NCBI GenBank assembly: GCA_944321715.1 | Contig: CALUMJ010000022.1 | Location: 1 to 43,329 of the forward strand | Source: an uncultured Muribaculaceae bacterium | GTDB lineage: Bacteria > Bacteroidota > Bacteroidia > Bacteroidales > Muribaculaceae | Reading direction: 5' to 3' | Length of the DNA: 43,329 nt | Shown here: piece by piece, positions 1,851-18,217 of the stretch | Layout of the letters: the number at the start of each line of letters is the position of its first letter | How positions within the stretch are numbered: the first letter of the stretch is position 1 | Position numbers and translations under genes: made by a program | Notes under the pieces: generated by a model | Told to the model about the DNA's origin: nothing | What the model saw: only the letters and a program-made list of their open reading frames with translations | Database searches by the model: none

Positions 1851-2417
1851 ATGGAAGATATTTTCAGGAAAGACTTGTCAGGCGCGATGGTATCGCCAAA
1901 TGAGCCAGGATATGACCAACTTATAAGTTCGATTTTTGCCACTATGAAGTTGGCATACGAATTAAACACTGGTTACCATACTCCTGAAGAAGTTCACGAT
2001 TATCTATGCCGTATTACAGGAAAAGAGATAGACCCGTCAACCACTTTATTGCCCCCATTCTATGTGGATTTTGGCAAAAACATAAGTATTGGTAAAAGGT
2101 GCTGGATTCAGCAAGGTTGTACTTTTTTCGACCGTGGAGGCATTACTATCGGCAACGATGTGTTCATTGCGCCGAAGGTGAACCTTATTACAATCAATCA
2201 TGACCCGAACCCCGACAATCGCAGTGCGACGTATGGTCGTCCTATAATCATTGAAGATAAAGTGTGGATAGGCATTAATTCAACGATTCTGCCCGGTGTG
2301 CGTATTGGTTATGGTGCCATAGTGGGGGCTAACAGCGTGGTAACGCATGATGTAGAGCCAATGACGGTGGTGGGTGGCAATCCCGCTAAGTTTATAAAAA
2401 AGATAGAAACGAAGTAA
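1851..2417 (+). CDS. Sugar O-acetyltransferase (maltose/galactoside acetyltransferase type)
   Basis: A 188-aa left-handed beta-helix acetyltransferase. An N-terminal alpha-helical cap (about residues 1-60, including the LAYELNTGYHTPEEV segment) precedes hexapeptide repeats from about residue 70 (ISIGKRCWIQQG, ITIGNDVFIAPKV, IIIEDKVWIGINSTILPGVRIGYGAIVGANSVV). The catalytic His is in TINHDPNPDNR. It would move acetyl from acetyl-CoA to a sugar or other hydroxyl in the cytoplasm. The ATG follows a TAATTTTG box by 25 nt and opens a five-gene run ending with the amidohydrolase at 6275. Such acetyltransferases often accompany AraC-controlled reductase clusters, but the link to the neighbouring oxidoreductases is inferred. 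Confidence 0.88.
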   Translation: MEDIFRKDLSGAMVSPNEPGYDQLISSIFATMKLAYELNTGYHTPEEVHDYLCRITGKEIDPSTTLLPPFYVDFGKNISIGKRCWIQQGCTFFDRGGITIGNDVFIAPKVNLITINHDPNPDNRSATYGRPIIIEDKVWIGINSTILPGVRIGYGAIVGANSVVTHDVEPMTVVGGNPAKFIKKIETK

Positions 2418-2431
2418 TAACTTAAAACCAA

Positions 2432-3619
2432 ATGATAATGGATACAAATCTTAATTACGACATGTATGTTCCTACCCGAGTTATGTTTGGGGCTGGAATG
2501 TTGAACAAATTGAGTGAACAACCAATGCCGGGTAAACGAGCTCTCATTGTTATTTCCAACGGAAAATCGACCCGAGCTAATGGATACTTGGCTCGCACCG
2601 AAGAGCAGTTGCATAAAGCAGGTGTGGCAACTGTTGTGTTTGACGGCGTAATGCCTAACCCAACGGTCGGCAATGTGAATGCTGGAGCAAAAGCAGCACG
2701 TGAGAATGGTTGCGATTTTCTCGTAGCCCTTGGGGGCGGTAGTGTAATGGATTGTACAAAAGCAATCGCAGTAATGGCTACAAATGATGGAGAACTTTGG
2801 GATTATGTACCTATTGGTTCGGGAAAGGGGCAACCGATAGCAGTAAAGCCTCTGCCAATTGTCGCTATTACTACCACGGCGGGAACAGGTTCGGAAACCG
2901 ACAATTCGGGCGTAATCACCAAGGAAGACACTTTTGAGAAGGCTTTTGTGGGTGATGCATCTTTATTCCCTGTCCTTTCCATTGTTGACCCCGAACTTAT
3001 GGCAAGTGTGCCGCCAACGTTCACGGCATATCAAGGTTTTGACGCATTATTCCACAGTACCGAGGGGTATATAGCAAAAGGTGCCAACCTGATGAGCGAC
3101 ATGTATGCGCTTACGGCCATTGAGAATTTGGCTAAATACCTGCCAAGGGCTGTGAAAAACGGCAAAGACATGGAAGCCCGTACACATGTCGCATGGGGCA
3201 ATACGCTTTCGGGCGTAGTAATGTGCCTCACGTTGATTACGAGCGAACATGCCTTGGAACACGCCCTATCGGCTTATCATCCAGCTTTGCCTCATGGTGC
3301 AGGCCTTATTATGGTCAGCAAGGCATATTATAAGTATTTTATTGAGCACCATGCTTGCGACGACCGCTTCGTCCGTATGGCGCAAGCGATGGGTATGCCC
3401 GAAGCCACAAAGCCCGAAGACTTTTTAACTGCTCTTGGTCGCTTGCAGGAGGCCTGTGGCGTGGCAGACCTGAAGATGTCGGACTATGGAATCACTCCTG
3501 ACGAATTTGAAACGCTGATGCGCAATACTCGTGAAGTAATGGGCGTGATGTTTACCAGTGACCGTGTGGCGATGACCGATGAGGACATTGTCAATGTATA
3601 TAAAGACTCATATAAGTAA
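2432..3619 (+). CDS. Iron-containing alcohol dehydrogenase
   Basis: A 395-aa group III (Fe-ADH) dehydrogenase that reduces aldehydes to alcohols, or the reverse, with NAD(P)H. The N-terminal Rossmann-like half carries GGGS (LGGGSVMDCTKAIA, about residue 100) and TTAGTGSETDNSGVI (about 148). The C-terminal helical half carries the metal site: Asp in GFDALFHSTEGY and His residues in SEHALEHALSAYHPALPHGAGL. Overall order and length fit YqhD/BdhA-like enzymes. The start is ATGATAATG, so initiation at 2432 or 2438 is possible. It follows the acetyltransferase by 14 nt. In E. coli an AraC regulator (YqhC) controls a Fe-ADH and an aldo/keto reductase against toxic aldehydes, and the gene content here recalls that arrangement. 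Confidence 0.93.
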   Translation: MIMDTNLNYDMYVPTRVMFGAGMLNKLSEQPMPGKRALIVISNGKSTRANGYLARTEEQLHKAGVATVVFDGVMPNPTVGNVNAGAKAARENGCDFLVALGGGSVMDCTKAIAVMATNDGELWDYVPIGSGKGQPIAVKPLPIVAITTTAGTGSETDNSGVITKEDTFEKAFVGDASLFPVLSIVDPELMASVPPTFTAYQGFDALFHSTEGYIAKGANLMSDMYALTAIENLAKYLPRAVKNGKDMEARTHVAWGNTLSGVVMCLTLITSEHALEHALSAYHPALPHGAGLIMVSKAYYKYFIEHHACDDRFVRMAQAMGMPEATKPEDFLTALGRLQEACGVADLKMSDYGITPDEFETLMRNTREVMGVMFTSDRVAMTDEDIVNVYKDSYK

Positions 3620-3640
3620 TCGATAAATCATTAACAAAAG

Positions 3641-3690
3641 ATGGGAACAAGGCTTGTTTGTGTGTGAGATGAGTTTTGTTCCCATTGTTA
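3641..3690 (+). terminator. Intercistronic hairpin
   Basis: ATGGGAACAA (3641-3650) pairs perfectly with TTGTTCCCAT (3676-3685), and TGTTATTT follows. The T stretch is poor, so it may be a partial terminator or an RNA-stabilising hairpin between the dehydrogenase and DUF362 genes. Confidence 0.45.
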
Positions 3691-3730
3691 TTTGGATAAA
3701 GATATTACTGACGATAAACAAATAGATAAT

Positions 3731-4723
3731 ATGATACGGACTTTATTTTCGGCTATGGCATTAGCTTTATCGTCTGTTGCAATGGCTGCTTGTTCAAGCA
3801 GTAATGAAAAGGGAGAAGTGCAGACTGAAACAGGCAAAACTACCACTTCTACCGCAGAACCGGCCAAAGTGTATATGACGCACGACATCACACCCGAAGG
3901 TTTGATAGCAGTTTATGAAGCATTGGGTCGTGAAGCGATTGGAAAGGTGGCGGTAAAATTGTCAACTGGCGAGCCAGGCGGGCATAATTATCTTCAACCT
4001 GCATTGATTAAAGACCTTGTGCAGCGTGTAAATGGAACTATCGTGGAATGCAATACGGCATACGGGGGCGGACGTTCCAGCACTGCCGCCCATCTTGAGG
4101 CGGCAAACGAACATGGGTTCACAGCCATTGCGCAAGTGGATATTATGGATGCGGACGGGGAAATCCGGCTTCCGGTGGAAGGTGGACGGCACATAGACTA
4201 TGACATTGTAGGCTCACATTATGCGGACTATGATTTCACTGTTGTCCTGTCGCACTTCAAAGGCCATGCAATGGCTGGATTCGGTGGCGCAATAAAGAAC
4301 ATATCAATAGGCATTGCGTCGGCAAATGGGAAACGTTGGATACATTCGGGTGGTGCAAGCACATCGAGCTGGGGGAATCCTTCACAAGAGGATTTTCTTG
4401 AAACGATGGCAGAAGCTGCAAAAGCAGTTGCAGACCATTGTGGCGATAAAATTTTGTACATCAACGTGGCAAATAATCTTTCGGTTGATTGTGATTGTGA
4501 TTCGTCGCCCGAAGACCCCCGAATGAATGATATTGGCATTCTTGCATCACTTGACCCCGTGGCACTTGACAAGGCTTGTACGGATTTGGTGCGGTCGTCT
4601 GACGATCATGGGAAAATACACTTGATAGAGCGAATCGATTCCCGACAAGGCATGCACACATTAGATTATGCCGAACAAATCGGGTTGGGTACACAGCAAT
4701 ATGAATTGATTAGTTTGGATTAA
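3731..4723 (+). CDS. DUF362 domain lipoprotein
   Basis: About 330 aa. The first residues form a lipoprotein signal peptide ending in SVAMAAC, so the mature protein is predicted to be lipid-anchored at a Cys near residue 20. The rest is a DUF362 domain: KVAVKLSTGEPGGHNYL, then ECNTAYGGGRSSTAAHL, then VVLSHFKGHAMAGFGGAIKNISIG and LASLDPVALDKACTDL. DUF362 proteins are often Fe-S proteins of unknown reaction, but here no ferredoxin motif is present, only CDCDSS. An upstream in-frame TTG at 3692 would add 13 polar residues and spoil the signal peptide, so I chose the ATG at 3731. It lies third in the left redox run, 15 nt before the cyclophilin-like gene. Confidence 0.85.
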   Translation: MIRTLFSAMALALSSVAMAACSSSNEKGEVQTETGKTTTSTAEPAKVYMTHDITPEGLIAVYEALGREAIGKVAVKLSTGEPGGHNYLQPALIKDLVQRVNGTIVECNTAYGGGRSSTAAHLEAANEHGFTAIAQVDIMDADGEIRLPVEGGRHIDYDIVGSHYADYDFTVVLSHFKGHAMAGFGGAIKNISIGIASANGKRWIHSGGASTSSWGNPSQEDFLETMAEAAKAVADHCGDKILYINVANNLSVDCDCDSSPEDPRMNDIGILASLDPVALDKACTDLVRSSDDHGKIHLIERIDSRQGMHTLDYAEQIGLGTQQYELISLD

Positions 4724-4738
4724 ACCAATTTATTTATA

Positions 4739-5221
4739 ATGGATATTGCCATGATAGTCAATCGTATATGTTTTATCCTTTTTTCGCTGTTTACCACCTT
4801 CATGGTAGTGGCTCAGGAACAACAAGGAGTTTCAAACAATCAAAATAATACGCAGATGGAAAATAATACTATAAAATTAACAATCGAAGGCGGCAAGACT
4901 TTCACCGCCACATTGGTGGAAAACTCTTCTACACGAGCTTTGAAAGAGCAACTTGCCAAAGGTGATATAATCGTTGAGATGGAAGATTATGCCAATATGG
5001 AGAAAGTGGGGTCGCTTGGCATTAAACTGCCACGAAACGACCGTCAAACCACGACTGGACCTGGCGACATTATCCTTTATCAAGGACATAATTTAGTAAT
5101 ATATTACGACACCAATTCGTGGAATTTCACTAAGTTGGGGAAAATAGACAATGTGTCGCAGTCCGATTTGAAAGCTGCATTAGGCAAAGGCGATGTAAGG
5201 GTGACATTGTCGTTGGAGTAA
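4739..5221 (+). CDS. Secreted cyclophilin-like fold protein
   Basis: A 160-aa protein. The N-terminal signal peptide (hydrophobic ICFILFSLFTTFMVV, cleavage probably near VAQ) and an Asn/Gln-rich linker are followed by a domain of about 120 aa beginning NTIKLTIEGGKTFTATLVEN. It contains the markers of the cyclophilin-like family found beside flavodoxins and reductases: LKEQLAKGDIIVEMEDYANMEKVG, then PGDIILYQGHNLVIYYD. No prolyl isomerase activity can be assumed. An internal ATG at 4856 falls exactly at the start of the domain, which is where cytoplasmic homologues begin. The start could be 4739 or 4751. Neighbours are the DUF362 lipoprotein (15 nt) and the amidohydrolase (13 nt). Confidence 0.82.
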   Translation: MDIAMIVNRICFILFSLFTTFMVVAQEQQGVSNNQNNTQMENNTIKLTIEGGKTFTATLVENSSTRALKEQLAKGDIIVEMEDYANMEKVGSLGIKLPRNDRQTTTGPGDIILYQGHNLVIYYDTNSWNFTKLGKIDNVSQSDLKAALGKGDVRVTLSLE

Positions 5222-5234
5222 TCGTTGCCATATA

Positions 5235-6275
5235 ATGAAAAAACTATTGATTGCAAGTTTGCTGTGGGCTTCTATTGGTGGCACAATGGAAGCCCAACAG
5301 GCAATAGATGTCCATACCCACATTATCGTGCCAGAATATATTGAGGTGTTGAAAGAGCATGGTGCAGAATTGGAAGAAACTTTTCCGTTGCCACAATGGA
5401 GTGTTGAAAGGCATTTGTCGTTTATGGATAGTGCGGATATACGTACAGCTGTATTAACAATGCCAGCTCCACAACCCTATTATGGTGATGCAGAGGAAAG
5501 TCGCCGCTGCATACGTCGGGTTAATGAAATTTCGGCAAAAGTGAAGCAGGAACATCCTGACAGGTTTAAGTTTTGTGCCGCTTTACCGTTACCCGATGTC
5601 GATGCTGCTATACGTGAGGCTATTTATGCGCTTGACACATTAAGGGCCGATGGAGTGAAGTTGGCAACTAATAGTCGAGGACAATATTTGGGTGATGAAG
5701 AGCTTGAACCGCTTATGAAGGTATTAAACGAGCGAAATGCGGTCATAATCATTCATCCTCATCGTCCGACACCATATTCCGAAGAAATAATTGCGGCAAC
5801 GCCGCTTGCCATGTATGAATATCCAGCCGAGACTACACGTGCCGTGGTGAATATGTTGGCACATAACGTACTTGCTCGTTATCCAAATCTGAAAGTTGTT
5901 GTACCACATTGCGGGTCATTTCTGCCGTTGGCTATTCCACGCATGAAATCTATTCTTCCTGCAATGGTGAAGCAGAGCTATATGAAACCGATAGACTGGG
6001 AAGCGAACTTGTCGCAATTGTATTTTGATTTAGCAGGGAGTCCTACAATAGAAGTGATTAGGTCGTTGTTGACAATTACTACTCCCGAACATATCCTTTA
6101 CGGTTCAGATTATCCTTATTTGCCAGATGAGGTATTACAGGCCAACAAGCAAAAATTGAAGGAAGCGTTGGCTGCCGACGAAGAACTCGTGGGATATGCA
6201 GATATGTTTATGTTTGAAAATGCCGAGAAGCTGTTTACCGAGAATGAAGGTTCTTGCAATATTCCGATGGAGTGA
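5235..6275 (+). CDS. Exported amidohydrolase-2 family hydrolase/decarboxylase
   Basis: A 346-aa TIM-barrel metal-dependent hydrolase of the Amidohydro_2/ACMSD type. A short signal peptide (LLIASLLWASIGGTMEAQ) comes before the first metal motif IDVHTHIIVPEY near residue 26. Further ligands are seen in IIIHPHRPTPYS (about 173), VVVPHCGSFLP (about 222) and the late Asp in YGSDYPYLPD (about 290). The family includes aminocarboxymuconate-semialdehyde and 6-methylsalicylate decarboxylases as well as hydrolases, and the substrate here is unknown. Export of such an enzyme is unusual. It is the last gene of the left redox run and ends 40 nt from the 3' end of the convergent AraC gene, which leaves little room for a terminator. 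Confidence 0.85.
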   Translation: MKKLLIASLLWASIGGTMEAQQAIDVHTHIIVPEYIEVLKEHGAELEETFPLPQWSVERHLSFMDSADIRTAVLTMPAPQPYYGDAEESRRCIRRVNEISAKVKQEHPDRFKFCAALPLPDVDAAIREAIYALDTLRADGVKLATNSRGQYLGDEELEPLMKVLNERNAVIIIHPHRPTPYSEEIIAATPLAMYEYPAETTRAVVNMLAHNVLARYPNLKVVVPHCGSFLPLAIPRMKSILPAMVKQSYMKPIDWEANLSQLYFDLAGSPTIEVIRSLLTITTPEHILYGSDYPYLPDEVLQANKQKLKEALAADEELVGYADMFMFENAEKLFTENEGSCNIPME

Positions 6276-7136
6276 TGCCTTCTATTTTCTTGAACATACG
6301 GCTGAAGTGTTGAGAATATTCAAAGCCGAGCCTATCGGATACTTGCGTTATGCTTTCTCCAGCTGCAAGACTGTTTTTGGCGAGTTGGATTATATACAGG
6401 CGAATGTAGTTGCTGGCAGTGTCACCAGTGGTCTTTTTATCACATCGCCAAAATAATTTGGCGACATGCACAGCTTATCGGCGCAATATTGGACGGTAGG
6501 CAAGCCGTTGTCAATTTGTAAGTTTTCTTCGAAATAGTTGCGAAGCAACCTGTCGAACCTGACAAGTATGTCGGAATTTTCAATTTTACGAGTTATGAAT
6601 TGTCGGTTATAAAAACGCTGGCAAAAATTAAGGGTCAGTTCAATATAGTTTACAATAATGGCATCTTGAAGGCCGTCGGCGTTTTTACCAAGTTCCTCAC
6701 TGATTTGGCGCATCAGCGATGTGAGAATGTCGTGTTCCTCGTCGGTCATGTGGAGGGCTTCGTTGACCCTGTAGTCAAAAAACGAATAATCTTTAATATG
6801 TTTCTCTAATGCAGTGCCGTGCAACAGGTCGGTATGGAACAGTAGAGCCCAACCTGTGATTGATGCCAACTCTCCGTTATCTTCCTTGCCACCAATCTGA
6901 CCGGGAGCCACACATAGCAAAGTACCCTTTTTATAATCATATTTGCCACAGCCATAGTCGAGTTCCACCTCGGCATCATCACGCAGGGAAAGTCCGTACA
7001 CGCTATAGTTATTAAGGCTATGGCGAATGGGTGAAACCTCGGCGTAATTGATGGCGCAGACCAAAGGATGTTGTGCTGGATGCCCAAGGTATCGACTATA
7101 ATCATTGACATTGCGAACCTTTAATATTTTGCTCAT
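6235..7136 (-). pseudogene. AraC-family transcriptional regulator, frameshifted
   Basis: Two overlapping minus-strand frames together encode one AraC-type regulator of about 300 aa. The first frame (7136 down to about 6434) has an N-terminal effector-like domain (about residues 1-180) and the first helix-turn-helix, reading into LCMSPNYFGDVIK. The second frame continues as KTTGDTASNYIRLYIIQLAK, with the second helix-turn-helix ITQVSDRLGFEYSQHFSRMF and ending at 6235. The break is at the run of five A residues (TTTTT at 6434-6438 on the plus strand). One more A would restore a perfect protein. As written the first frame ends 13 residues after the break and lacks half of the DNA-binding domain. 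It lies between the two redox runs and is divergent from the right one, so it is their likely regulator. The shift could be a real mutation, phase variation or a sequencing error. Confidence 0.88.
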
Positions 7137-7158
7137 CGTTAAGTTATAGTTTGTTATG

Positions 7159-7166
7159 CAAAGATA
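7159..7166 (-). promoter_or_regulatory. -7 box of the AraC gene
   Basis: On the minus strand the sequence reads TATCTTTG, matching TAnnTTTG, about 22 nt before the ATG at 7136. No -33 TTTG at the usual distance was seen. Confidence 0.5.
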
Positions 7167-7203
7167 TAGTAATTTATGGATAATGATTTAGGCATCTGGC
7201 AAA

Positions 7204-7270
7204 TTCAGTAAAAATGGTACAGTTTGCCAACTTATGGTTACATGTATAAACACTCGTCATTGTAATTTTG
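7204..7270 (+). promoter_or_regulatory. Promoter and candidate AraC operator of right redox operon
   Basis: A -7 box TAATTTTG at 7263-7270 lies 18 nt before the ATG at 7289. Upstream are two similar direct repeats, ATGGTACA (7214-7221) and ATGGTTACA (7234-7242), with starts 20 bp apart, about two helical turns, as is usual for AraC-family half-sites. A TTCAGTAAA motif at 7204-7212 lies at nearly the same distance from the -7 box as in front of the gene at 1851 (57 against 58 nt, measured to the TGTAATTTTG). The assignment to the neighbouring AraC regulator is inferred. Confidence 0.5.
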
Positions 7271-7288
7271 TATAGGTAAAGAAAAACA

Positions 7289-7531
7289 ATGGAATCACAG
7301 ATGGATATTGACGAAACATTATATACAGATGAGGCCGTATGCTTCATTGCAGACCGACATGGTGTCACGCCTCGGCAACTGTTGAGTTGCTTTCTTGTTG
7401 GCGCGTCACCTTTTTCGACCGTAATTGTCACCTCCGATAATATTCTTGCGGTTTTAGAACCCAATGAGGTAGAAATATTAAAAGGCTTGGTTTGTCAAGC
7501 GCAATTAATGAATACTAATGAAATCATTTAA
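7289..7531 (+). CDS. Small hypothetical protein, first gene of right redox operon
   Basis: 80 aa, not recognised with confidence. It is acidic at the N-terminus (MDIDETLYTDEAVCFIADRH) and has a helical-looking HGVTPRQLLSCFL segment and a C-terminal EVEILKGLVCQAQLM helix. It has no signal peptide or membrane segment. It lies 18 nt after a TAATTTTG box and 9 nt before the flavin reductase-like gene, so it is surely co-transcribed with it. Two Cys residues (in VCFIAD and LLSCFL) are the only obvious reactive residues. A small regulator or partner protein is possible, but nothing supports a function. Confidence 0.6.
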   Translation: MESQMDIDETLYTDEAVCFIADRHGVTPRQLLSCFLVGASPFSTVIVTSDNILAVLEPNEVEILKGLVCQAQLMNTNEII

Positions 7532-7540
7532 GATATAACT

Positions 7541-9111
<1,571 letters not shown>

Positions 9112-9112
9112 T

Positions 9113-9766
9113 ATGGAACGGCGTGAATTCTTAAAGAGGTCGTCACTTGCGGCCTTAGGAACCGTAGTTGCAGGCTCGGGATTGATACAGGCCATTAATC
9201 ATATAGGTAATAACGAATTAAAAAACAACAAAATGAAGATAGTAGTATTGACAGGTAGCCCTCGAAAAAATGGCAACTCTGCTTATTTGGCAGAACAATT
9301 TATTAAAGGGGCAGAAGAACAGGGGCATGAGATATTCCGTTTCGATTGTGCGTTCAAGCAAGTAGAACCTTGTCGGGCTTGCAACCGGTGTGGTATGAAT
9401 GGTCCATGCATATTGAATGACGATTTTCAAGAACTTCGCCAACACCTTGTCGAAGCCGACATGGTGGTATTTGCCACACCGATGTATTATTTCGGCGTAT
9501 CGGCCCAAATGAAACGAGTAATAGACCGCTTTTATGCTATCAATGGACAAATTAAAGGCGCACGGAAAAAGGCTGCTTTTTTGATGACATACGCCGATAC
9601 AGCAAGTAAAGAGGCCGAACCGATGCTTGTGCATTATCGTACTCTGTTAGATTACCTCGGCTGGAAAAGCGTAGGAGAAGTGGTGGCATCTGGCGTATGG
9701 ACGGCGGGCAGTGTCCGTAATACCGACTACCCGCAGCAAGCCTATCAATTAGGTAAAAGTTTGTAA
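9113..9766 (+). CDS. Tat-exported NADPH-dependent FMN reductase / flavodoxin-fold protein
   Basis: A 217-aa protein. The N-terminus MERREFLKRSSLAALGTVV is a twin-arginine (Tat) signal: RR, FLK, then a weakly hydrophobic stretch. After an Asn/Lys linker the flavodoxin-like domain begins with KIVVLTGSPRKNGNSAYLAE, the FMN phosphate-binding loop, then PCRACNRCGMNGPCILNDDF, a Cys-rich loop common in this iron-sulfur flavoprotein-like family, and VFATPMYYFGVSAQMK. Tat export suits a protein that takes up FMN before crossing the membrane. An internal ATG at 9233 marks the start of the cytoplasmic-type domain. The TatA gene at the end of the same operon fits its export. Confidence 0.87.
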   Translation: MERREFLKRSSLAALGTVVAGSGLIQAINHIGNNELKNNKMKIVVLTGSPRKNGNSAYLAEQFIKGAEEQGHEIFRFDCAFKQVEPCRACNRCGMNGPCILNDDFQELRQHLVEADMVVFATPMYYFGVSAQMKRVIDRFYAINGQIKGARKKAAFLMTYADTASKEAEPMLVHYRTLLDYLGWKSVGEVVASGVWTAGSVRNTDYPQQAYQLGKSL

Positions 9767-9799
9767 CTATGAGTATTCTAATCTAATTATTCAGATGAT

Positions 9800-10948
9800 A
9801 TGAAGAAGGTTGTATGGATATTTACTTTTATGTTGGCAACATGTTTGCCGATATTGGCACAGACCACAGATGAAATAGGCAGGATTGACGTGTGCAAGGA
9901 AAATTATCGTACACTTTTTGGAGGAGAAGCTCTTACGGGTAAAGGAACTGACCCTGAGATGATGTATATTCTTCAGAAATTTATTTTTGGCGAAGTATTT
10001 GTTACAGGCGACTTGGACTTGAAACAGAGAGAAATGATAACCTGCATAACACTTGCCACAATGCAAACACTGCCACAATTGAAAGCCCATGCCGGAGCTG
10101 CTTTAAATGTTGGCGTCACTCCTGTTGAACTTAGGGAGGTTATGTATTTAACAGCTCCTTTTATAGGATTCCCGAAGATGCTGAATGCCGTAGCTGCTGT
10201 GAATGAAGTATTCAAAGAACGTGGTATTTCTTTGCCATTGGAAGAGCAAGGCACAGTAACAGAAGAAACGCGCCACGAAACAGGCAAGGCTATCCAAGAC
10301 CGACTTTATCCGGGTGGCATAACTTCGGTGATGGATGGGATGCCCGATGATTTAGGAAAGGATGTGGAGCGATTTTTGACCGATTATTTTTTCGGTGAAA
10401 TATATAGCCGCGGTGCACTCGATTTGAAAACTCGAGAACTATTGGGATATTGTGTGTTGACAACTTTGGAGGCAGAAAGCCAGCTTAGGTCGCACTATCA
10501 TGGCTGTATCAAAGCTGGCAATACTCCCGAGAAGTTAGCAGCAGCCGTTATCCAGACATTGCCATATATTGGGTTTCCTGCAGCTATCAAGGCTTTGCGT
10601 ATCATCAAGGAGGAGTGTTTAGCGTCAGTATCGGCCAGCAACAATCTGGTTCGTCTTTCCAAAATAACTATTGACCCGGCGCAATTAGATAACTATAATG
10701 CCTTTTTGAAAGAAGAAATTGAGGCATCGATGAAACTTGAGCCAGGCGTACTCACACTTTATGCAACAGCCGAGAAAGATGCTCCGCACAAAGTGACAAT
10801 TCTTGAAATCTATGCCGACCAGTCGGCTTATGAAAGTCATTTGCAGACACCACATTTCAAAAAGTATAAACAAGGTACAATTGAAATGGTGAAAGAATTG
10901 GAATTGGTGGACGTTACTCCACTAATTCCCGGATTAAAAATTAAATAA
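9800..10948 (+). CDS. Exported double carboxymuconolactone decarboxylase with monooxygenase-like tail
   Basis: A 382-aa three-domain protein. A Sec signal peptide (VVWIFTFMLATCLPILAQ) is followed by two carboxymuconolactone decarboxylase (AhpD-like) domains, about residues 30-135 (LKQREMITCITLATMQTLP, then HAGAALNVGVTPVELREV) and about 160-270 (TRELLGYCVLTTLEAESQLR, then HYHGCIKAGNTPEKLAAAV). The C-terminal 95 residues (NLVRLSKITIDPAQLDNY, then VTILEIYADQSAYESHLQT) resemble an antibiotic-biosynthesis-monooxygenase (YgiN-like) ferredoxin-fold domain. Such families handle quinones, lactones or peroxides. No CxxC as in AhpD is present, so peroxidase partner activity is doubtful. It lies in the right redox operon, 33 nt after the Tat protein. 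Confidence 0.85.
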   Translation: MKKVVWIFTFMLATCLPILAQTTDEIGRIDVCKENYRTLFGGEALTGKGTDPEMMYILQKFIFGEVFVTGDLDLKQREMITCITLATMQTLPQLKAHAGAALNVGVTPVELREVMYLTAPFIGFPKMLNAVAAVNEVFKERGISLPLEEQGTVTEETRHETGKAIQDRLYPGGITSVMDGMPDDLGKDVERFLTDYFFGEIYSRGALDLKTRELLGYCVLTTLEAESQLRSHYHGCIKAGNTPEKLAAAVIQTLPYIGFPAAIKALRIIKEECLASVSASNNLVRLSKITIDPAQLDNYNAFLKEEIEASMKLEPGVLTLYATAEKDAPHKVTILEIYADQSAYESHLQTPHFKKYKQGTIEMVKELELVDVTPLIPGLKIK

Positions 10949-10963
10949 TTAATCAATCGACAC

Positions 10964-11539
10964 ATGAAAAAAGTTTTATTAATTGTCGCAGCAGTAATGG
11001 GATTATGCCTTATGGCGTGCGCACAGAACAAAGAGAAACAGCAAATGAAAACAAACAACAATGTATTAGTAGCTTATTTTTCTGCTACTGGCAATACTGC
11101 TAAAGTTGCCCAACGCATTGCTGAAATATCGGGAGGCACATTATATGAAATTGTGCCACAAGAAGCATATACTTCGGCCGACCTTAACTGGCATAACCAG
11201 CAGTCGCGTAGCTCGGTAGAAATGAACGATTCAAAAGCTCGCCCTGCTTTAAAATCGGGCAATGAAGATTTTAGTGCTTATGATGTGATATTTATAGGCT
11301 ATCCAATTTGGTGGGACCAAGCCCTGCGTGTCATCAATACGTTTATAGAAAGTTATGACCTGAAAGGCAAAGCAATTGTTCCGTTTGCCACATCGGGTGG
11401 AAGCGGTATTGGCAATAGTGTTGCAGTGTTGAGAAAAGAATATCCCAGCTTGAATTGGCATGAAGGGAAGCTGTTGAACAGGGCAAGTGACAGCTCCATC
11501 GAAGATTGGATTAATGATATAACGAAAAAGCAGAAATGA
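10964..11539 (+). CDS. Flavodoxin lipoprotein
   Basis: A 191-aa protein. The N-terminus is a lipoprotein signal with lipobox LMAC (Cys 19), then a Lys/Gln linker, then a flavodoxin domain: NVLVAYFSATGNTAKVAQRI (FMN phosphate loop, SATGNT), IGYPIWWDQALRVINTFIE (the PIWW ring-stacking loop) and PFATSGGSGIGNSV. It would be a one-electron/hydride carrier or a flavodoxin-like quinone reductase. Anchoring a flavodoxin by a Sec-type lipoprotein signal is odd because FMN is normally inserted in the cytoplasm. An internal ATG at 11045, preceded by AAAGAGAAA, could give a cytoplasmic form. Its TGA shares a base with the start of tatA. Confidence 0.88.
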   Translation: MKKVLLIVAAVMGLCLMACAQNKEKQQMKTNNNVLVAYFSATGNTAKVAQRIAEISGGTLYEIVPQEAYTSADLNWHNQQSRSSVEMNDSKARPALKSGNEDFSAYDVIFIGYPIWWDQALRVINTFIESYDLKGKAIVPFATSGGSGIGNSVAVLRKEYPSLNWHEGKLLNRASDSSIEDWINDITKKQK

Positions 11540-11715
11540 TGTTTGGAATAGGAACTCAGGAAATAATTTTCATCGTACTGATTGTACTGCTATTCTTCGG
11601 CGGCAAAAAAATTCCCGAATTGATGAAAGGAGTTGGCAAAGGGGTACGCAGTTTCAAAGATGCCATGAACGGTATTGATGACTCCCCTGAAAAAACAAAT
11701 CGTGAAGTTCAATAA
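11539..11715 (+). CDS. tatA: Sec-independent protein translocase TatA
   Basis: A short 58-aa gene. Translation begins MFGIGTQEIIFIVLIVLLFF and continues GGKKIPELMKGVGKGVRSF, then an acidic/polar tail ending NREVQ. This is the complete TatA plan: a short N-terminus, one membrane helix, the FGGKKIPE hinge and an amphipathic helix with LMKGVGKG. TatA forms the pore-like part of the twin-arginine translocase. TatC is not in the window. The ATG overlaps the flavodoxin stop by one base (ATGATG), so it is the last gene of the right redox operon, which also encodes a protein with a twin-arginine signal. A terminator follows. Confidence 0.9.
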   Translation: MFGIGTQEIIFIVLIVLLFFGGKKIPELMKGVGKGVRSFKDAMNGIDDSPEKTNREVQ

Positions 11716-14631: not shown

Positions 14632-17082
14632 ATGAATAAGAAAAGTATGGCTGTCATGGCAGCCACAATGTTGTCCATCATATTTCAGGCGAGAGCTGGC
14701 ATCATAAGCGGGAAAGTGGTTGATTCGTCAACAGATGAGCCAATGGAATATGTTAATGTCACTATAAGCAATAAAAATACGGGGAAGGAGTTGCCTGTCG
14801 GAACAATGTCGGGTGGTGATGGCTCGTTTAAGCTCGATGGCCTTCCAGCCGGAAGTTATAAAGTAAAGTTGTCGTATGTCGGTTACAACGCTGCGTTTGT
14901 AGATGCCGTGATACGTTCGTCAAACGAATCGCTAAACCTCAATGTCGTAGAATTGAGTGAGAATGCTCATATACTTGATGAGGTGGAAGTGGTGGGAATG
15001 AAAGCTCAAATGCGCTTTGAACTTGACAAGAAAGTGTTCAACGTTGACCAAAATATTGCTGCTGCAGGCGCTTCGGCAAGTGAGATACTTGAAACAGTGC
15101 CGTCGGTAGAAGTGGATGAAGATGGTGAAGTGTCGTTGCGTGGCAATACATCGGTCACAATATGGATAAATGGTCGTCCGTCGGGATTAACTTCTGATAA
15201 TCGTGGACAAATATTGGAGCAAATTCCTGCCGAAACCATCGAAAAAATAGAAGTAATAACAAACCCGTCGGCCAAGTATAGCCCAGAAGGAACTTCGGGC
15301 ATAATCAATATAGTGCTGAAACGCAATCGGCAGGCTGGCTATTTCGGTGGTGCTCAAGCTGGAGCCAACACTTTAGGACATTTCAACGTTGGTGGTAATA
15401 TAAATGTAAATGTAGGACAATGGGACACTTATGCCAACATAGGTGTGCGTGGACGACATAACGATGGATATAACAATACTTATCGCACATATAATGATGG
15501 AACATATCTAAATTCGCTTGGGGAAACGGAACGGCGCAACACGTCATTTTTCTTCCGTGCCGGTACTACTTACCATATTACAAAAGCAGATGCTTTGTCG
15601 CTCGGTGGCTTTGGAATGGTCGGTGGGGGTTGGAATCGCAATCGTACAACGTATGACAGCGATGTTCAAGATAGCTTCACATCGGGCTTTAGCAATAGCG
15701 ACAGTAACAATGATGGCCGAGGAGGGAATGTGTCGCTTGATTATGTTCATGAGTTTAGCGATACTCACGACCTTATGGCATCGGTTTCGTTTAACTTGTG
15801 GCGAATGCCCAGTGAAGTGGTTTATCAGCGACAATATGATTACCCTGATTCGACCGACACATATTGGCAACGGCAAGAAACAGACATTAAAGTGAATAAC
15901 TGGGAGTTCCAATTGGACTATACAAATCAATTAAATGAAAAATTTAAGATAGAAGCTGGCTATAAAGGCACATTAAGCCACGAAGACAGCCCGATGGAAA
16001 CGTGGACGGGTGTAAATCAAGAAAATATGCCTGCCGATGAGGATTTGTGGAACCGTTTCATCTACGACCAAAATATTCAGGCACTTTATGCCACATTTGG
16101 CGGAAGAATTGAGGATTTTAGTTTTTCGGCCGGTTTAAGAGGCGAATACTGGAGGAATGAAGTCAAGTCGATTGGCTATGGCGAAGCTGAGAGTGCTGTC
16201 GCACCGTTTGTCAGCCGCAAGTTTGCATTGTTTCCAAGTGCATTTTTGTCATATTCATTGCCGAAGGATAACGAGGTCCAGATAAACTATACCCGACGCA
16301 TACGCCGTCCATGGGGAGGACAGCTAAATCCGTTTGTCAATATCAGTGACCCTACTAACATATCATACGGAAATCCCGAATTACAACCACAGTATGCCAA
16401 TGCTTTTGAGCTTAATTACATAAAGAGTTGGACAAATCATACGGTTTCGGTGTCGGGTTATTACCGCACGACCAACGATGTGATACAGCGCATCAGTTTC
16501 ATGCGTGATGGTGTCATGAACAGTACCAACGAAAATGTATCGAAATCGCTTGAATCGGGTGTGGAATTTGTTGTGCAGAATAACTTGTTTAAACGGCTGA
16601 ACTTGACTTCGACGGTAAACTTGTATTATAATAAACTCGACGGTTTCAGTTTCTTACCCGAAGGAATGACAAATCCTGTGACAGGAGAGGAGGAAAGTAA
16701 TTTTACATGGAATATCAATATGATGGCATCAATTCGGCTTCCGTGGGATATGAACTTGCAACTTAATGGGCGTTACCATTCGCGTCAAATACTTGCGCAG
16801 GGGTCGCGCGACCCTCGCTATCGTGTCGATTGTGGCATAAAAAAGTCATTGGGCAATTGGTCGATGTCGGTGAATGTGCGTGACCTGCTTGATTCCCGCA
16901 AATGGGAACAAGAAACATTTGGCACCGATTTCGTACAGTATTCCGAGCGGCGTGGAGGTGGACGGCAAGTCAGGTTTACAGTGTCGTATAGTTTCGGAAA
17001 TGCCAAGCCCACCAAACCAACAAAGCATCGCCCTGGAGGCGATGCTGCTGGAGGTGGCTATGGTGGCGAATCGGATTATTAA
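14632..17082 (+). CDS. TonB-dependent receptor-like outer membrane beta-barrel protein
   Basis: An 816-aa protein. A signal peptide (SMAVMAATMLSIIFQARA) precedes a carboxypeptidase-regulatory-like beta-sandwich (about residues 22-105, GIISGKVVDSSTDEPMEYVN to LNLNVVELSENA), a plug-like domain (about 115-225: ASEILETVPSVEVDEDGEV, SLRGNTSVTIWINGRPSG, IEVITNPSAKYSPEGTSGII) and an OMP_b-brl_3 type barrel to the C-terminus. The tail is Gly-rich (PGGDAAGGGYGGESDY) instead of ending in the usual aromatic barrel strand. Such proteins import or secrete unknown ligands, and no SusD partner lies nearby. An in-frame TTG at 14602 would add ten residues before the signal peptide, so I prefer the ATG at 14632. 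The neighbour on the right is convergent, 34 nt away. Confidence 0.88.
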   Translation: MNKKSMAVMAATMLSIIFQARAGIISGKVVDSSTDEPMEYVNVTISNKNTGKELPVGTMSGGDGSFKLDGLPAGSYKVKLSYVGYNAAFVDAVIRSSNESLNLNVVELSENAHILDEVEVVGMKAQMRFELDKKVFNVDQNIAAAGASASEILETVPSVEVDEDGEVSLRGNTSVTIWINGRPSGLTSDNRGQILEQIPAETIEKIEVITNPSAKYSPEGTSGIINIVLKRNRQAGYFGGAQAGANTLGHFNVGGNINVNVGQWDTYANIGVRGRHNDGYNNTYRTYNDGTYLNSLGETERRNTSFFFRAGTTYHITKADALSLGGFGMVGGGWNRNRTTYDSDVQDSFTSGFSNSDSNNDGRGGNVSLDYVHEFSDTHDLMASVSFNLWRMPSEVVYQRQYDYPDSTDTYWQRQETDIKVNNWEFQLDYTNQLNEKFKIEAGYKGTLSHEDSPMETWTGVNQENMPADEDLWNRFIYDQNIQALYATFGGRIEDFSFSAGLRGEYWRNEVKSIGYGEAESAVAPFVSRKFALFPSAFLSYSLPKDNEVQINYTRRIRRPWGGQLNPFVNISDPTNISYGNPELQPQYANAFELNYIKSWTNHTVSVSGYYRTTNDVIQRISFMRDGVMNSTNENVSKSLESGVEFVVQNNLFKRLNLTSTVNLYYNKLDGFSFLPEGMTNPVTGEEESNFTWNINMMASIRLPWDMNLQLNGRYHSRQILAQGSRDPRYRVDCGIKKSLGNWSMSVNVRDLLDSRKWEQETFGTDFVQYSERRGGGRQVRFTVSYSFGNAKPTKPTKHRPGGDAAGGGYGGESDY

Positions 17083-17116
17083 CCATTCGCCATGTTTTAT
17101 TGAAGCAAGTGGTGGG

Positions 17117-18217
17117 CTATCTCACAATCACTTTTTGAGAAAATATATGGCTGTCTATGTCGAACTTGACGATATAGCACCCTGCATTGGCAGTGATTGT
17201 TGTTTGTCCTGTGCTACTGCATGGCAACGACTCGACAAGAGTGCCAGTCATATTATAGATGGCAGCTCTGTCGTATGTGCCATTTATCAAGATTTTGCCT
17301 TGTGAGCCAAGTGCATTAGCCGTTTCGGATATTTGCTTAGGTGCTATTGAGGTTTGCCCATCGCTATTGGTATAAACAGCAATAGCAGTTAGGCATGATT
17401 GTCCGTCTGTGGGAGGGGTCAGTTCCACTTTGTCGGAGGAGCCTGTCCACGAGGCGATTTCCTCGGCAGTTTCCTCGCCATTTATAAAAATAGTTCTTCC
17501 GAGGAAATGGGTTGCTACATCGACTTTGGTAATGTTGGGTGCTGTAATTGTTATGCACCCATCGTCTTGAAGTGATGCGTAGAAGAGCGACGAAATATAT
17601 TGGGCTGTACCAGTAAATGCTGTTTGAACCTCACCGGTTTTCAATGTTGTCCAAGACAAACCGGCATCGTCGCCACCAAAGAAGTTTTTTAATATGAAGG
17701 CTGTGACATTGTCTTCGCCTTTAGGACGTTCTTCGTATGTAATGGTGATGCTGCTGACATAGACATTGTTGGCAAACATGCTTATGCAATAGTTGGTGTC
17801 ATCGATGGGGAAAGGATATTCGGCATTGTTCTCAAAGACGATTTCCCTCCTTGAGGTAACAGCACTGGTATTTTTGTATAAGTTGCTTTGCAGCATTTCG
17901 CCCGTTGGCGATTCAAAATATAATGTAAAATCGGTGTTTCGGTCAATTTTTTCAACCCACACGCTTATTCTCGTTACCTTGTAGAATATCGGAGAAGACA
18001 GTATATAATCATAGGTCGAACCGCCGCGTATTCCAAAGAAAAGGCAGTTTATGTCGTTTATGGCTTTAAAGTCAACTTTGTTTCCTTTCACCCAGCCGTC
18101 GGGCAGGGATTGGGTGCTTGTAAAATCCATTACATATTGCTTGGATTCGCAAAAAGCCATAGTGGGTAGCACCATGTATGATATGATGCACACAAAAAAT
18201 GAAAGAAGGTTCCTCAT
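17117..18217 (-). CDS. Secreted protein with T9SS-like C-terminal sorting domain
   Basis: A 366-aa exported protein. The signal peptide (LLSFFVCIISYMVLPTMAFC) is followed by a beta-rich region of about 270 aa with no family I recognise. An early FTSTQSLPDGWVKGNKVDF segment resembles carbohydrate-binding or cleaved-adhesin-type beta-sandwiches. The last 60 residues (AAIYNMTGTLVESL, then NAGCYIVKFDIDSH, then FSQKVIVR) have the shape of the type IX secretion type A sorting domain: IYN-x-x-G, aGxYivk, KvivR. In gut Bacteroidales these domains occur even where T9SS is uncertain. It is monocistronic in appearance, with 69 nt to the ftsE end. Confidence 0.75.
   Translation of the reverse strand: MRNLLSFFVCIISYMVLPTMAFCESKQYVMDFTSTQSLPDGWVKGNKVDFKAINDINCLFFGIRGGSTYDYILSSPIFYKVTRISVWVEKIDRNTDFTLYFESPTGEMLQSNLYKNTSAVTSRREIVFENNAEYPFPIDDTNYCISMFANNVYVSSITITYEERPKGEDNVTAFILKNFFGGDDAGLSWTTLKTGEVQTAFTGTAQYISSLFYASLQDDGCITITAPNITKVDVATHFLGRTIFINGEETAEEIASWTGSSDKVELTPPTDGQSCLTAIAVYTNSDGQTSIAPKQISETANALGSQGKILINGTYDRAAIYNMTGTLVESLPCSSTGQTTITANAGCYIVKFDIDSHIFSQKVIVR

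Follow-up and report, generated by a model that had tools for sequence, protein, structure and literature searches.

A patchily distributed redox module of gut Bacteroidales with signal-bearing enzymes and start-like ATG codons at their domain boundaries

The contig CALUMJ010000022.1 of an uncultured Muribaculaceae bacterium (assembly GCA_944321715.1), analysed over positions 1 to 43,329 and called the window below, carries a 13-gene redox module. Open reading frames (ORFs) and family profile scans of the window showed that it consists of two gene runs flanking an AraC-type gene on the minus strand. A preliminary description had reported two runs around one AraC regulator together with the enzyme families, and the family scans found them present; a tatA gene at the module end lay within the same coordinates, yet had not been named. 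Several enzymes appear to be cytosolic redox proteins joined to export signals at ATG codons that look like start sites, from which a second, cytosolic product is predicted. Relatives were collected by scanning species genomes with the carboxymuconolactone decarboxylase (CMD) protein of the module; 128 stretches were confirmed and the best 80 kept (L numbers denote related loci). The features are as follows, where A is the adenine fraction of the 20 bases upstream of an ATG and dG the local folding energy.

1851-2417, plus strand: hexapeptide acetyltransferase without a signal; a module partner in just 3 of the 80 relative loci
2432-3619, plus strand: iron-containing alcohol dehydrogenase (Fe-ADH) without a signal; 16 of the 80 relative loci
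3731-4723, plus strand: DUF362 protein, N-terminus lipoprotein-like by eye; 2 of the 80 relative loci
4739-5221, plus strand: cyclophilin-like PF18050 protein with a Sec-type signal and a polar linker
4856-4858, plus strand: PF18050 boundary ATG (Met40), unchanged across 13 aligned proteins; A 0.55, dG 0.0
5235-6275, plus strand: amidohydrolase (Amidohydro_2) with a Sec-type signal
6390-7136, minus strand: AraC-type regulator gene whose frame is disrupted ahead of the C-terminal helix-turn-helix (HTH); open frames of relatives longer
7289-7531, plus strand: small ORF between the AraC gene and the second run; relatives in 26 of the 80 loci
7541-8104, plus strand: flavin reductase-like protein without a signal
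8101-9111, plus strand: aldo/keto reductase (AKR) without a signal
9113-9766, plus strand: FMN_red protein with an RR (Tat-type) signal and a CX2CX2CX5C motif
9233-9235, plus strand: FMN_red boundary ATG (Met41), no change in a tree of 30 proteins; A 0.70, dG 0.0
9800-10948, plus strand: CMD-CMD-ABM protein of 382 residues with a Sec-type signal
10964-11539, plus strand: flavodoxin of the PRK07116 subfamily with a lipoprotein-type signal
11045-11047, plus strand: flavodoxin boundary ATG; A 0.65, dG 0.0
11536-11715, plus strand: TatA of 59 residues, the genome's second, overlapping the flavodoxin stop; PF02416, 51.6 bits

The FMN_red protein has an FMN_red/flavodoxin-like domain (PF03358, 92.1 bits) and a compact cysteine motif, CRACNRCGMNGPC; the pattern CX2CX2CX5C was present in all 30 relatives and in the window protein. 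The motif of iron-sulfur flavoproteins (Isf) is given as CX2CX2CX5-7C in the excerpted text of PMC3164229. The two share the FMN_red domain and the compact cysteine motif, whereas the window protein has a Tat-type signal and its cofactors are only predicted. The flavodoxin scored 233.2 bits for PRK07116 (cut-off 198), and the structures 4ici, 4j8p and 3klb in the Protein Data Bank are close relatives whose matches begin past the signal, at residues 21, 29 and 32 of the query. For the PF18050 protein, no solved relative was found at E 0.01. The DUF362 protein was read from the ATG at 3731, the program-listed ORF opening earlier at a TTG (3692).

The module-end TatA passed TIGR01411 with 56.5 bits (cut-off 53.9). 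One other TatA was found in the genome, which is 92.9% complete, and it adjoins the sole TatC found, on contig C2. Among the relatives, a module-type tatA (at least 75% identity) lay within 10.5 kb of the CMD gene in 4 of the 80 loci (L063, L065, L052 and L019); it stood directly 3' of the flavodoxin gene in L063 and L065, and 7.5 kb from CMD, near DUF362, in L052. Between DUF362 and tatA of that last locus lies a gene for a 169-residue membrane-like protein (17042-17548) with no Pfam match. Degenerate copies of module-type tatA were observed at L019:14503-14688 and L085:3133-3267, the latter below the threshold. These copies suggest that the gene is being lost in some lineages.

Export signals were assigned by eye and with simple rules. 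Those that had been described at the N-termini in the window recurred in relatives. The RRxF motif was found in 28 of the 30 FMN_red relatives; L058 had no RR signal, and in L079 the RR signal was out of frame. A signal was seen in all 13 aligned PF18050 proteins (the window's and 12 of its 13 relatives) and in 25 of 26 close flavodoxins, window counted, the signal of L008 being out of frame. An order-wide search gave flavodoxins of the window's family (match at E 1e-35) in 41 of 393 sampled genomes; 30 loci of its 46 matches were inspected, the window's own included, and all 22 readable proteins of the other 29 had a signal. None was seen in the flavodoxins of L058 and L059, which are more distant (49% and 47%). 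Homologous clusters without export signals, named beforehand as grounds for rejecting relocation of the enzymes, were thus found as exceptions only: the flavodoxins of L058 and L059 and the FMN_red protein of L058, with the out-of-frame signals of L079 and L008 beside them. AKR and Fe-ADH, which had been called soluble, indeed lacked a signal. The Tat model TIGR01409 is borderline for the window FMN_red protein, with 18.7 bits in the genome scan and 16.2 in the protein scan (cut-off 16.7); of two relatives, L087 passed (18.3 bits) and L034 was unlisted at E 0.1.

As reported, ATG codons do stand at 4856, 9233 and 11045, each at the beginning of an enzyme domain. Signal-less FMN_red relatives with 33-53% identity (L117, L120, L122-L124, L128, L129, L132 and L133, among others) begin at the boundary Met itself, so that "grafted", the word used for signals on these usually cytosolic domains, is correct for FMN_red. 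In the PF18050 proteins, a short Sec signal, a long lipoprotein linker or a whole flavodoxin domain precedes approximately the same point, suggesting repeated fusion to different N-terminal parts. The export grafts themselves appear solid. The amidohydrolase had neither a linker nor a boundary Met behind its signal.

The boundary Met was conserved to differing degrees. In the FMN_red tree (n = 30; L054, L079, L058 and L115 omitted) the linker columns underwent between 8 and 16 changes, the Met none. The PF18050 tree (n = 15) omitted L089, L122, L090, L094, L095, L093 and L092 as duplicates, fusions or proteins with long unrelated N-termini; its linker columns changed 5 to 10 times, the four columns after the Met 3 to 7 times, and the Met once, in L091. 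The Met was present in 22 of the 26 close flavodoxins and, by eye, in the linkers of 12 of the 22 wider ones (a script had marked 16, of which L153-L155 and L173 were discounted because the Met lay inside the signal). Among CMD relatives, 51 of the 68 readable ones had it; the other 12 of the 80 loci, read by eye, included several with Met (e.g., L053, L058, L064 and L086) and some without (L041 and L080).

Some related arrangements were also observed. L009:4280-5302 encodes a lipoprotein-like flavodoxin-PF18050 fusion within a related module, and similar open frames occur in L090 and L094-L099. A Met also ends the polar linker of other exported proteins, namely an ...LTQEWDK family in L058, L059 and L084 and an exported flavin reductase-like protein in L062. 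The FMN_red gene of L079 and the flavodoxin gene of L008, both in entries titled as metagenome-type isolates, have a broken signal and a frame open from the Met, as would fit either a short form that is of use or genes that are simply decaying.

Initiation independent of Shine-Dalgarno pairing is favoured in Flavobacterium johnsoniae by A at positions -3 and -6 and by little structure between -20 and +20, and -12 and -13 are also discussed as initiation positions (excerpts of PMC6847099). The boundary ATGs at 4856, 9233 and 11045 had A contents of 0.55, 0.70 and 0.65, each with a folding energy of 0.0, as against means of 0.27 and -7.5 for the 78 other in-frame ATGs of nine window genes. Of these 78, at most two equalled a boundary ATG in A content, one in energy and none in both. 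Even the genes' own signal starts were poorer than the boundary ATG, both in FMN_red (A 0.40, dG -6.8) and in PF18050 (A 0.45, dG -5.9). All four positions -3, -6, -12 and -13 carried A at 9233, the last three at 4856 and only -13 at 11045.

The relatives showed the same tendency. The frequencies of A at -3, -6, -12 and -13 were 0.77, 0.74, 0.71 and 0.83 in 65 boundary ATGs of relatives, and 0.66, 0.79, 0.79 and 0.66 in 29 dereplicated ones, compared with 0.81, 0.73, 0.81 and 0.92 in 26 true starts (AKR, flavin reductase and Fe-ADH; not dereplicated). Overall, the 29 dereplicated boundary ATGs (A 0.58, dG -1.8) stood close to the true starts (A 0.55, dG -1.25) and apart from 42 control exported linkers (A 0.34, dG -6.7) and 21 other exported proteins with a linker Met (A 0.38, dG -7.0). 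Rank tests of dereplicated boundary ATGs against the 42 controls gave 8e-9 for energy and 2e-11 for A content. The first context test had taken related sequences as independent, and the later ones added controls and dereplication; the sets held only Met-bearing copies and omitted the same rows as the trees, plus the flavodoxins of L008 and L077. Among CMD copies, dG was -2.2 for those with Met (n = 51) and -7.6 for those without (n = 16), groups that may differ in ancestry too. In the wider set, the 12 flavodoxins whose linker holds a Met had A contents of 0.50-0.65 and energies of 0 to -2.4. The boundary ATGs thus look like Bacteroidota start sites. This is the new point here, since the internal Met had previously been treated as a fusion mark only.

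We put at about 55% the reading in which this is an exported redox module with fused signals, whose retained internal starts give dual products and whose role concerns electrophiles or oxidants. Sec, lipoprotein or Tat signals would have been joined in frame to cytosolic flavin and redox enzymes, at the former start codon or close to it. Proteins that bear such cofactors must fold in the cytosol before Tat export, and for that reason the Tat route would suit the Isf-like FMN_red protein, which may take up FMN and a 4Fe-4S cluster as it folds and then be exported with the aid of the extra TatA. In the envelope, the FMN_red protein would cooperate with the exported flavodoxin, CMD and PF18050 proteins; inside the cell, AKR, Fe-ADH and flavin reductase would act; the module would probably serve in defence against electrophiles or oxidants. 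Some ribosomes may initiate at the old ATG and leave a cytosolic form: as the old starts are still initiation-like, the FMN_red, PF18050 and flavodoxin genes probably also yield some signal-less, cytosolic protein. We offer more tentatively, and are inclined to doubt in full, the specific proposal of one regulon serving two compartments, with exported long forms, cytosolic short forms and a TatA dedicated to a folded iron-sulfur flavoprotein. If dual products are made, fusing a signal upstream while keeping the old start would be a simple route to dual-compartment enzymes in non-Shine-Dalgarno bacteria, and exported enzymes with a start-like ATG where their domain begins would offer a signature for scans of Bacteroidota. 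The module would likewise exemplify a module-borne TatA beside a putative folded iron-sulfur flavoprotein.

The strongest competitor, to which we give a chance not far below even, holds that only the exported forms are made and regards the boundary Mets and A-rich linkers as fusion relics, an old start with its leader, kept as a useful polar unstructured linker. The following observations all weigh against the favoured reading, and several suit the relic explanation directly. The Met is absent from 4 of the 26 close flavodoxins, where GTT, GTA or ACG stands in its place or, in L049, no counterpart exists; no GTG or TTG start has therefore taken over, and alternative start codons are ruled out there. 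It is likewise absent from 10 of the 22 wider flavodoxins and from 17 of the 68 readable CMD relatives, and the window CMD protein has Ile at this position. Where PF18050 follows a flavodoxin domain (L090, L094 and L095), the Met is kept at the junction, as a relic would be. The evidence from FMN_red is ambiguous, since the Met there stands at the head of the conserved first strand and may have been retained for structural reasons. Of the three window sites, 9233 alone has A at -3, and 11045 has one of the four positions. The control linker genes were chosen by rule, uncurated, and may include false genes. A-ending K, E and Q codons made up 66 of 91 in boundary linkers, against 62 of 109 in the control set (p = 0.027) and 30 of 59 among linkers with other Mets; once the sequences are dereplicated this synonymous excess is weak, so that much of the context effect comes from the choice of residues, and GAA is also favoured in the control exported linkers. 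Finally, dual products are predicted from sequence, the chemical function is read from family names only, and an intact AraC frame is missing in the window. Against relics stand the divergence of the FMN_red linker columns around a persistent Met and start-like context, and the lack of such context, on average, at other linker Mets of the same loci.

On the chemical side, the families fit the reduction of electrophiles or oxidants, as in RclR-RclX, or some catabolic conversion. The earlier proposal of carbonyl or quinone reduction in the periplasm can be regarded as a guess. NAD(P)H is not expected in the periplasm, and no membrane electron donor was seen among the 13 genes of the run. A catabolic module for one dietary or host compound, partly periplasmic and unconnected with stress, would be compatible with either account of the internal starts; we judge it plausible, if well short of an even chance. 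The amidohydrolase, CMD-ABM protein, Fe-ADH and acetyltransferase would suit such a pathway, relatives add a CMD-cupin protein, DUF6282 and a ferredoxin-type AKR, and gene content differs among loci. However, no transporter or substrate-binding gene was found among the 13 genes, and the analysed flanks of L077 show CMD and flavodoxin together without the other members, both of which count against catabolism. That the signals are false and all proteins cytosolic is very improbable: they were judged by eye and simple rules and the Tat model is borderline for the window protein, but they persist in nearly all readable close relatives despite sequence divergence, tatA sits in the run, and the solved relative 4ici aligns from flavodoxin residue 21, hinting at a signal-less construct.

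As for the regulator, the AraC gene reported earlier is there, but its frame is broken ahead of the C-terminal HTH. The 248-residue product had no family match at E 0.001, and the NCBIfam scan gave only a chance match; its relatives comprise 299-302 residues in five loci read gene by gene, and the 299-residue one in L009 matches HTH_18 (61.1 bits). The break may be a real lesion or a sequencing or assembly error. The small ORF behind the gene had no match in the Pfam scan. Just upstream of the module, at 1534-1712, lies a 179-base palindromic element whose inner arms (1563-1591 and 1652-1680) are 97% complementary. It is present in high copy in the genome, where 40 of 172 candidate places were scored and had 81-100% identity, most of them near full length, and looks like a miniature transposable element.

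The 80 kept loci are from Bacteroidales as far as titles are recognisable, apart from L059 (Verrucomicrobia) and L080. Within about 10.5 kb of the CMD gene, relatives above identity thresholds chosen per family were found for FMN_red in at least 33 loci, AKR in 32, flavin reductase in 29, AraC, the small ORF and flavodoxin in 26 each, amidohydrolase in 25, Fe-ADH in 16, PF18050 in 13, TatA in 4, the acetyltransferase in 3 and DUF362 in 2; all are lower bounds because many loci stop at contig edges. Six of the 80 loci were read gene by gene and showed extra members: a CMD-cupin protein, a DUF6282 protein with a Tat signal, an AKR with a ferredoxin domain and the flavodoxin-PF18050 fusion. The CMD gene was detected in 5 of 9 genomes of the window's genus (its own included), in none of 28 from other genera of the family and in 1 of 24 further genomes of the order. 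CMD identity was 79-84% within the genus and 82-83% to isolates whose titles name Bacteroides sp. ET71 (L012), Mediterranea massiliensis and Leyella lascolaii. In L012 the boundary Met is retained by the FMN_red protein and by the flavodoxin. The sequences portray a patchily distributed, AraC-associated module of gut Bacteroidales, which, we infer, has spread horizontally. No title or abstract found in the literature searched describes this gene set; the iron-stimulon paper PMC10434189 treats FldA and other loci in its excerpted text and has one mention of carboxymuconolactone elsewhere.

Three known systems invite comparison. YqhC-YqhD-DkgA of E. coli, to which the module had been likened, has an AraC-type regulator, an Fe-ADH and an AKR as neighbours, and the window module resembles it in combining an AraC-type gene, Fe-ADH and AKR in one neighbourhood. 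Identity with its members was not borne out, the scores lying far below the NCBIfam cut-offs: Fe-ADH reached 132.8 bits for PRK15138, which we take to be the YqhD model (cut-off 645), and AKR 49.4 for PRK11565, the DkgA model (cut-off 425), its best NCBIfam model being YdjG-type (156.3 of 550). We know of no exported flavoproteins in that system. RclR of Pseudomonas aeruginosa is also an AraC-type regulator. It stands beside the CMD-family protein RclX, and the pair is needed against HOCl and HOSCN (excerpts of PMC7950407). RclX is AhpD-like with CXXC, whereas the CMD protein of the window has a signal and a CMD-CMD-ABM make-up, and the CXXC of RclX-type AhpD-like peroxidases occurs nowhere in its 382 residues; the regulators are likened by type.

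The closest precedent for dual products is HBP35 of Porphyromonas gingivalis, a signal-peptide protein whose internal AUGs yield signal-less cytosolic forms, as tested in PMC2907840, which in its excerpts also cites PilB of Neisseria. Signal-losing N-terminal proteoforms have further been reported from Salmonella (PMC11005335, excerpts). HBP35 comes from the same order as the window genes and shares with them a signal and an internal AUG; in the window the in-frame internal ATGs also have a start-like context, with A at -3 only at 9233. HBP35 is, by the excerpted account, a single gene whose short forms lose a thioredoxin domain. In the window several redox enzymes of one module would be concerned, and the ATG lies at the domain start.

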